64,000 nucleotides of DNA, from positions 1,872,501 to 1,936,500 of the forward strand of contig NC_091675.1 in the NCBI RefSeq assembly GCF_042453785.1, written 5' to 3'. Shown here piece after piece: positions 16,757 through 17,912 of the stretch. Numbering within the stretch: the stretch's first letter is position 1; each line of letters starts with the position of its first letter. Source of the DNA: Malus domestica. Lineage: Eukaryota > Streptophyta > Magnoliopsida > Rosales > Rosaceae. Both the position numbers and the translations under genes were made by a program. The notes below the pieces were generated by a model. The model ran no database searches and had not been told where the DNA came from. It worked only from the letters and a program-made list of their open reading frames with translations.

Positions 16757-16945
16757 TGGGCCTAACAAAAGTTGGACTATTATAATTTTATTAAAAGCCC
16801 ATAGAAAACCCCAGATTTCCATTCAAAGCCCAAAACGAAAAGGAGTGGGCCGCGCCACCAAAATATCAAATCTGTTCGTCAGATGGGTAAAACCCTAATT
16901 CACATAAACCCCTATATAATCTCGATCCTTCTCCTATCCGCCTCC
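16757..16945 (+). promoter_or_regulatory. Site II, telobox and TATA promoter of the snoRNA cluster
   Basis: TGGGCY site II elements are visible at 16757-16762 and 16846-16851 on the plus strand and at 16796-16801 and 16827-16832 as AGCCCA. A telobox (AAACCCTAA) lies at 16890-16898 and a TATA box (TATATAAT) at 16913-16920, so transcription should start near 16945. This set is known from plant ribosomal protein and snoRNA genes. The following pyrimidine-rich leader and the C/D snoRNAs downstream fit a polycistronic RNA polymerase II transcript. Confidence 0.75.
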
Positions 16946-17291
16946 CATTCTTCCCCTTTCTCAGTCGCCCTTCAAATTTCAATCTCCGCAGATCTGATTG
17001 TGTTTCGGATCTGAATACTTAGCGTCTGTGTTTTCTGAGTTTTGGTTTCGATTTTCTGTGTGCGCGTCTATGTTTGTTTGTCATGCATCTGTTTACCCTC
17101 TCATTCCACGCAAAATTCAATGGTGGAGGAGCTTAGAACGGATGCAGATATCGATTGGTTGGCTTACCAGCTCACTGCAGATTGTTTGAGTTTGCTTTTG
17201 GGTCAAATGGACCTACCGATATACTTATATGCTTAATTATGTTTAATTTATTTTCTTAATTATGTCTAGTTTTGTGTGGGTCGAATATCGA

Positions 17292-17377
17292 ATGGCAAAT
17301 GATGAATAATCTTTTCCGCTTATTGATATACTGAATCTTCTGTGTTGACATAAACTCCGCTTATTATCTGATGCCAT
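17292..17377 (+). ncRNA. Box C/D snoRNA guiding 25S rRNA (U44/U48 region)
   Basis: The terminal stem ATGGCA (17292-17297) pairs with TGCCAT (17372-17377). Box C is ATGATGA at 17299-17305, box D is CTGA at 17368-17371, and a D' CTGA lies at 17331-17334. The D' guide TCCGCTTATTGATAT is a perfect 15-nt complement of the 25S rRNA 5' region AUAUCAAUAAGCGGA. By the plus-five rule it targets U44 of plant 25S, counted on the Arabidopsis sequence from memory. The D guide CTCCGCTTATT covers the same stretch shifted and points to U48. This agrees with the plant snoR44 type; the name is from memory, the pairing is read directly. Confidence 0.85.
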
Positions 17378-17443
17378 TTTTCTATCTTTTTATTTATTTA
17401 TTTGGTTTTTTTTTAAAATTTTTTTTTTGGGAAGAAATGGAAG

Positions 17444-17533
17444 GGCAAAGCGTATGATGCAAAATATTATCACTTATACTACACACCGAAATAAATGTGG
17501 ACAAAATCTCCGCTTATTATCTGAAGCTTTGCC
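17444..17533 (+). ncRNA. Box C/D snoRNA, second 25S rRNA 5'-end guide
   Basis: The terminal stem GGCAAAGC (17444-17451) pairs perfectly with GCTTTGCC (17526-17533). A C-like box GTATGATGC is at 17452-17460 and D box CTGA at 17521-17524. The guide before box D, TCTCCGCTTATTAT, matches that of the previous snoRNA and complements 25S AAUAAGCGGAG over 11 nt. The C box departs from RUGAUGA, so this copy may be weaker. It appears to be a diverged paralogue of the D half of its neighbour about 150 bp upstream. Confidence 0.7.
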
Positions 17534-17612
17534 ATATTTTATTGATTTTTAATCAAATTAGTAATTTCTTTTTTTGTAAATTTTTAGTGACAGTTTTGTT
17601 TATGGTGTTAAA

Positions 17613-17714
17613 AATGGTTTCGATGATGAGGAAAAGCAGACGGGCGGACAGAATCTGATGCTGTGTAGATTGTCTGCAATTTCCACGTATGTGGAATTGT
17701 CTCTGAGGATTATT
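17613..17714 (+). ncRNA. Box C/D snoRNA candidate, target unknown
   Basis: Box C ATGATGA is at 17623-17629, box D CTGA at 17703-17706, and a D' CTGA at 17655-17658. The flanks AATGGTTT and GGATTATT can pair with several G-U wobbles. An internal hairpin TTCCAC-GTAT-GTGGAA sits at 17681-17696 just before the D guide. I found no convincing complement in rRNA from memory for GTGGAATTGTCT or GACGGGCGGACAG. Position, length and boxes support it as part of the cluster. Confidence 0.6.
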
Positions 17715-17829
17715 TGTTTTTGGTTTTTAAATTGTATTAAAATTGAGTTAATAGTAATTAGAAGTGAAATGTGTGAGTTAATTGCATTTGATTAGTAGTT
17801 TAATTGTTTGGATTATGTTTTCCTGAGTT

Positions 17830-17912
17830 GGTGCAGTGATGATGTTGCTCTAATATATGTCTGGACATATGAGATTAAAACAGTGATATCACATGCAACA
17901 CTTCTGAGCGCC
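17830..17912 (+). ncRNA. Box C/D snoRNA candidate, target unknown
   Basis: Terminal stem GGTGC (17830-17834) pairs with GCGCC (17908-17912). Box C is GTGATGA at 17836-17842 and box D CTGA at 17904-17907. An internal hairpin ATATGT-CTGG-ACATAT lies near 17855-17870. The D guide ATGCAACACTT has only about seven matching bases in 18S rRNA that I can recall, which is too few to call a target. It is the last member seen in the cluster; downstream there are only three short repeats of AATCTGCTGAATGTG (17967-18090). Confidence 0.65.

Follow-up and report, generated by a model that had tools for sequence, protein, structure and literature searches.

A probable polycistronic C/D snoRNA cluster of the snoR16-U43 type behind a telobox/site II promoter in apple

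The 64-kb stretch of apple (Malus domestica) DNA analysed here (contig 15, contig positions 1872501-1936500; hereafter the window) very probably carries a polycistronic plant C/D snoRNA cluster in which RNAs 1-3 represent an apple-type snoR16-U43 arrangement. A fourth C/D RNA at its end, RNA 4, is judged from its sequence to be probably a working guide as well. Boxes, terminal stems, guide matches at the +5 position and conservation between copies were observed at the locus, and the features are listed in Table 1. In the proposed mechanism, RNA polymerase II would transcribe a non-coding gene from a telobox/site II promoter, and the shared precursor would be cut into four C/D-box snoRNAs. Once assembled into fibrillarin particles, these would act as guides for ribose methylation. 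RNA 1 would direct modification of 25S U44 (D' guide) and U48 (D guide), RNA 2 of 25S U2456 (D') and U48 (D), the U43-like RNA 3 of C1645 in the decoding centre of 18S, and RNA 4 of 18S C1219.

Table 1. Features of the apple snoRNA locus, in positions of the window.
Feature	Position	Strand	Evidence and assignment
Site II motifs, four (TGGGCC 16757, AGCCCA 16796, AGCCCA 16827, TGGGCC 16846)	16757-16851	+	Motif scan
Telobox AAACCCTAA	16890-16898	+	Motif scan; kept on contig 8
TATA box TATATAA	16913-16919	+	Motif scan; identical on contig 8
Putative precursor leader	16945-17290	+	Start placed from the TATA box; includes a conserved block at about 17120-17236
RNA 1, snoR16 copy	17291-17378	+	Rfam 66.9 bits; predicted D' guide for 25S U44, D guide for 25S U48; 7-bp terminal stem
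RNA 2, snoR16 copy	17446-17531	+	Rfam 57.4 bits; predicted D' guide for 25S U2456, D guide for U48; 6-bp terminal stem
RNA 3, U43-like C/D RNA	about 17617-17712	+	SNORD43 alignment, 16.8 bits; guide GACGGGCGG with ACAGA D' box, predicted for 18S C1645
RNA 4, C/D RNA	17830-17910	+	Guide TATGTCTGGAC with D'-like ATGA, predicted for 18S C1219; 5-bp terminal stem

A first-pass annotation of the window had described site II elements, a telobox, a TATA box and then four C/D RNAs within 1.2 kb. Our motif scan, which used the telobox and site II definitions in the available text of PMC3022908, placed the promoter motifs at the positions given there, and the boxes of the four RNAs followed in order. 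The telobox and the TGGGCY motifs lay within 1 kb upstream of the first snoRNA. At least one telobox together with at least three site II motifs per 250 bp occurred at a single place in the window, accounting for 22 of 6375 overlapping 250-bp steps, every one of which started within 16581-16791. In the alignment with the homeologous copy on contig 8, the telobox, the TATA box and all site II motifs but the first kept their positions. According to the available text of PMC3022908, a telobox accompanied by a site II or TEF box is present at 34 of 40 non-intronic Arabidopsis snoRNA loci, and the part of PMC4660826 available to us describes the telobox and site II combination as already used for finding snoRNA genes. 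Upstream of the cluster, a DUF620 protein gene on the same strand ends at 16376.

The four RNAs are all encoded on the plus strand, separated by spacers of 67, 85 and 117 nt, and each has the D box CTGA. A C box RUGAUGA and a D box CUGA 50-115 nt apart, enclosed by a terminal stem, were found in strict form in three of them, RNAs 1, 3 and 4. When both strands of the window were scanned for RTGATGA followed by CTGA with a terminal stem of at least five pairs including G-U, four matches were obtained on the plus strand (these three RNAs and 7379-7464) and none on the minus strand. RNA 2 was absent from the strict scan because its C box, ATGATGC, is one base off consensus; despite this it fits the snoR16 model with its 6-bp stem. 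The match at 7379-7464, outside the cluster, is C/D-like with a 5-pair stem and had no Rfam match. The window also contains two tRNA matches on the minus strand, 43127-43198 (64.9 bits) and 59789-59860 (44.0 bits, with two mismatched stem pairs).

Terminal stems had been claimed for all four RNAs. Those of RNAs 1, 2 and 4 were present in the predicted folds (7, 6 and 5 bp, respectively). The stem of RNA 3 was recovered by the scan only; it is longer, rich in A-U and G-U pairs, and absent from the predicted minimum-energy fold. C/D RNAs usually fold little more stably than shuffled sequences, and the fold stabilities of RNAs 1-4 relative to shuffles (z from -0.62 to -1.30) were of this kind.

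The comparison with covariance models suggested in the first-pass annotation was run as an Rfam search. RNAs 1 and 2 exceeded the gathering cut-off of snoR16 (RF00296), which is 45 bits, and RNAs 3 and 4 stayed below every cut-off. Genome-wide searches covered the 651-Mb apple assembly of 19 contigs. At least four snoR16 matches were found there, namely RNAs 1 and 2 and their partners on contig 8, with none elsewhere among the matches listed; this number is a lower bound because 86 of 44691 candidates were scored. RNA 3 had at first been recognized from its boxes alone, and it was read as U43 because of a weak SNORD43 (RF00221) match and a guide for C1645. Since it scored 16.8 bits with SNORD43, whose cut-off is 45, it is called U43-like rather than a member of the family. 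RNA 4, with its degenerate D' box ATGA, had no Rfam family above cut-off. SNORD72, with a cut-off of 43 bits, was considered for it at 29.3 bits and dropped, because the background is of similar size: three other C/D families reach about 25 bits on RNA 1.

Guide targets were predicted on rRNA. No intact 25S or 18S sequence was found in the assembly, only decayed or cut fragments (L023 1971-4565 and L024 2593-4001), and the copy on contig 1 runs into N; the fragments were therefore used as targets. Contig 1 supplied the 25S 5' end, 5.8S and the 3' part of 18S, and contigs 16 and 17 supplied 25S copies in a decayed state; smaller remnants, likewise decayed, and a yeast-like 18S (L035) completed the set. 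The targets were rRNA alone, covered apart from about 400 nt of 25S (an estimate) and parts of plant 18S. The yeast-like sequence comes from BMQD01000062.1 (L035), which is titled Planomonospora parontospora and contains yeast-like rDNA (18S, 5.8S, the start of 25S and 5S), probably as contamination.

The D' guide of RNA 1 (17310-17329) formed a 20-bp duplex, including two G-U pairs, with the contig-1 25S fragment and placed the +5 base opposite U44; with the yeast-like 25S, 17312-17329 formed an 18-bp duplex, again including two G-U pairs. Within the longer duplex, 17315-17329 at the 3' end of the guide formed 15 Watson-Crick pairs in a row, the perfect 15-nt match to 25S that had been reported for the first RNA. 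Its D guide formed 11 bp with +5 at 25S U48. In RNA 2, the D' guide formed 14 bp with +5 at 25S U2456, and the D guide formed 11 bp plus one G-U with +5 at U48. Direct counting on the contig-1 25S fragment, with the base before CGACCCC taken as nucleotide 1, gave 44 and 48, in agreement with the two sites named in the first-pass annotation, and 2456 was obtained on the contig-17 copy with Arabidopsis G2410 as anchor.

For the 18S targets, the guide of RNA 3 formed 9 bp with +5 at yeast C1639 (Arabidopsis C1645), in the yeast-like and the apple 18S alike; RNA 3 has the guide for the decoding-centre cytidine that is expected of U43. The guide of RNA 4 formed 11 bp with the contig-1 18S fragment (10 Watson-Crick pairs and one G-U) and 9 Watson-Crick pairs with the yeast-like 18S, with +5 at yeast C1215, which by offset and alignment is the equivalent of Arabidopsis C1219. 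The +5 rule was checked for 18S on the yeast-like 18S and the apple 18S 3' part, and for 25S on the fragments. Six of the eight D and D' elements agreed with it; for the D guides of RNAs 3 and 4, no target was accepted. The six amount to five distinct sites, and each of the five is a mapped 2'-O-methylated nucleotide (Nm) in Table 1 of the Arabidopsis RiboMeth-seq study (PMC8053127). The same study assigns U48 to SnoR16, U2456 to SnoR16.1, C1645 to U43, U44 to SnoR120 and C1219 to SnoR166. In the available text of PMC11542601, Um44, Um48 and the equivalents of C1219 and C1645 are mapped in tomato and tobacco, and Um2456 in tomato only.

Since the five sites coincide with mapped Arabidopsis methylation sites, the earlier interpretation of the locus was supported and could be extended. 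Rfam, conservation in the homeolog, the numbering of guide targets and a published snoR16-U43 cluster are all compatible with a polycistronic plant C/D snoRNA gene. Added here are the RNA names, snoR16 (twice) and U43-like, and the guide for 18S C1219.

Shuffled controls were made for RNAs 3 and 4. The known sites were put on the yeast 18S by simple number offsets, under which 31 of 35 mapped bases had the expected letter. Any known 18S site was reached by 3 of 150 letter shuffles of RNA 3 and 5 of 150 of RNA 4; with a score of at least 10, the counts were 1/150 and 0/150, respectively. The best box-adjacent pairing of RNA 3 scored 11.0, at an 18S position outside the known Nm sites, and its pairing at C1645 scored 9.0. 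RNA 4 scored 10.5 at C1219, a value that 10 of 60 shuffles attained when no known site was demanded, and 9.0 at the equivalent of A796 in the yeast-like 18S.

Several other pairings were considered. The A796 pairing of RNA 4 (the SnoR25 site, 9 bp in the yeast-like 18S) was rejected on two grounds: a C that we take plant 18S to have there, which would break the pairing, and the missing methylation in tomato and tobacco. No Nm at the A796 equivalent is given for either species in the available text of PMC11542601. No apple 18S covering the A796 region was found in the assembly. The D guide of RNA 4 formed 10 bp with 25S, only in the decayed contig-16 copy; this target was rejected because GTGTCGCAATAG in the contig-17 copy breaks the pairing. 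The D-side guide of RNA 3 matched yeast 18S at A579, and a 12-nt match lay near yeast 18S position 73; neither is a known Nm site.

The homeologous copy on contig 8 (L009 3203-3705) preserves the arrangement of promoter, leader and RNAs 1-3. Identity to contig 15 was 100% for RNA 1 (88/88 nt), 94% for RNA 2 and 96% for RNA 3, and 46% and 79% for the spacers between them; this excess of RNA over spacer conservation was equalled by 3 of 858 alignment rotations. The leader as a whole was 0.88 identical, with parts as conserved as the RNA genes. On contig 8, the D box of RNA 2 is CTTA, the C box of RNA 3 is ATGAAGA, and no match to RNA 4 was found. Further copies were found on contigs 3, 10, 12 and 11 (L010-L015). 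Contig 3 has RNAs 3 and 4, with RNA 3 conserved and its C box again ATGAAGA, and contig 10 has half of RNA 3 together with RNA 4; boxes are altered in both. Part of RNA 4 is present on contig 12, and shorter pieces occur in three repeats on contig 11. Upstream of the contig-3 and contig-10 copies, a stretch of about 1.2 kb contained neither a telobox nor a site II motif, and neither was present in the upstream stretch scanned at the contig-12 copy. The exact U43-type guide with its D' string occurs three times in the genome: in RNA 3 here, on contig 8, and on contig 16, where it is not preceded by a C box. For the RNA 4 guide pattern there are seven occurrences, and by eye an exact C box precedes it only at RNA 4 of this cluster.

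These copies bear on an alternative in which RNAs 1-3 are the only working snoRNAs and RNA 4 is in decay or resembles a C/D RNA by chance. In its favour, RNA 4 lacks a contig-8 partner and a family above cut-off, its relatives on contigs 3, 10 and 12 have altered boxes, its D' box is degenerate, and 10 of 60 shuffles attain its raw pairing score. However, the copy in the cluster retains a C box, a D box and a 5-bp stem, its 11-nt guide meets a mapped Nm site at +5, where none of the 150 shuffles scored 10 or more, and the guide stretch is unchanged on contigs 3 and 12. We regard this alternative as unlikely and favour RNA 4 as a guide.

A conserved leader block (17120-17236) follows the promoter and precedes RNA 1. 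Of its 117 positions, 5 differ between contigs 15 and 8, and one frame, of 38 codons here, is open in both copies. As a structured RNA it was rejected at a fold z-score of -0.63. As a protein it was rejected as well: four of the five differences change an amino acid, and the block had no match among Pfam and PDB sequences. The conserved block and its shared open frame could be taken for the first exon of an unannotated host gene with the snoRNAs in its introns, instead of a stand-alone polycistron, and the available text of PMC3022908 describes intronic snoRNA loci behind promoters of this type. Yet the observations on amino-acid changes and protein matches argue against this reading, no good splice sites were seen by eye, and the usual Arabidopsis form, in the same text, is the stand-alone locus, so that an intronic origin appears improbable. 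That the contig-15 cluster is silent or pseudogenised and the contig-8 copy active instead is very unlikely: copies with no telobox or site II motif in the scanned stretch do exist on contigs 3 and 10 and the RNA 2 C box here is one base off consensus, but the losses are on contig 8 (RNA 4 absent, RNA 2 D box CTTA), and contig 15 retains its promoter motifs and four CTGA D boxes.

Within the preferred reading, a stand-alone polycistronic cluster, RNA 1 has guides for both U44 and U48. Both would pair with one stretch of rRNA, shifted against each other by 4 nt, and RNA 1 would therefore have to bind twice, never with both guides at once. A pattern with 14 fixed bases, which would miss guides that pair over a shorter length or whose D box is a variant, had six matches in the genome, and by eye a C/D frame was present only at RNA 1 and its contig-8 twin. 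We tentatively suggest that in this lineage one snoR16 copy may have gained a second guide and become the sole guide for 25S U44 and one of the guides for U48, in which case a separate SnoR120 would no longer be needed. In the literature on snoR16 and 25S, SnoR120, and Um44 and Um48, as far as its text was available (most subscription papers lay outside the search), no report of a dual U44/U48 guide RNA was found.

The analysis provides coordinates and predicted targets for four RNA genes that are invisible to protein-based annotation, two of which, RNAs 3 and 4, fall below Rfam cut-offs. The locus offers a small test case for a target shift in a duplicated snoRNA, and another for the division of losses within a homeologous pair after genome duplication. 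The local features of the locus are the duplicated snoR16, the U44 and U48 guides on one RNA, and the uneven losses on contig 8; the kind of cluster is already known, and knowledge of snoRNA genes in general is unchanged by it.

A rice U43a-snoR16 cluster (cluster 66) and an Arabidopsis snoR16.1-U43.1 cluster are described in the available text of PMC5122169, and since such clusters are known in these two plants, the apple locus most likely represents this cluster in a further species. Malus is not mentioned in the main text of that paper. It regards U43a of the rice cluster as a recent gain confined to the BOP clade, yet names the Arabidopsis cluster as the same; such a restriction sits oddly with the Arabidopsis and the apple clusters. 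In all three plants, snoR16 and a U43-type RNA occur together, and Arabidopsis SnoR16, SnoR16.1 and U43 are assigned to the same sites, U48, U2456 and C1645. Compared by description rather than by sequence or order, apple differs in having snoR16 twice and a fourth RNA, the predicted C1219 guide.

At the level of single RNAs, RNAs 1 and 2 match Rfam snoR16 from end to end and share its D guide for U48. Relative to the printed consensus, RNA 1 adds the D' guide for U44, whereas the D' side of RNA 2 is nearer to the consensus. RNA 3 has in common with the SNORD43 alignment the guide, the ACAGA D' box, a UGUG...GAUUGUC block and the target 18S C1645; it is longer, has an inverted repeat before the D box and scores below the family cut-off. 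Arabidopsis SnoR120 and SnoR166 have the target nucleotides predicted here for the D' side of RNA 1 and for RNA 4, respectively, and the U44 and U48 guides, which are divided between SnoR120 and SnoR16 in Arabidopsis, are on one RNA in apple. Arabidopsis U15, whose D and D' guides act on A2282 and G2289, too close for simultaneous binding (PMC8053127), is a precedent for one C/D RNA with two mutually exclusive sites. The sites of RNA 1 differ from those of U15 in lying 4 nt apart, with both guides pairing to overlapping bases.
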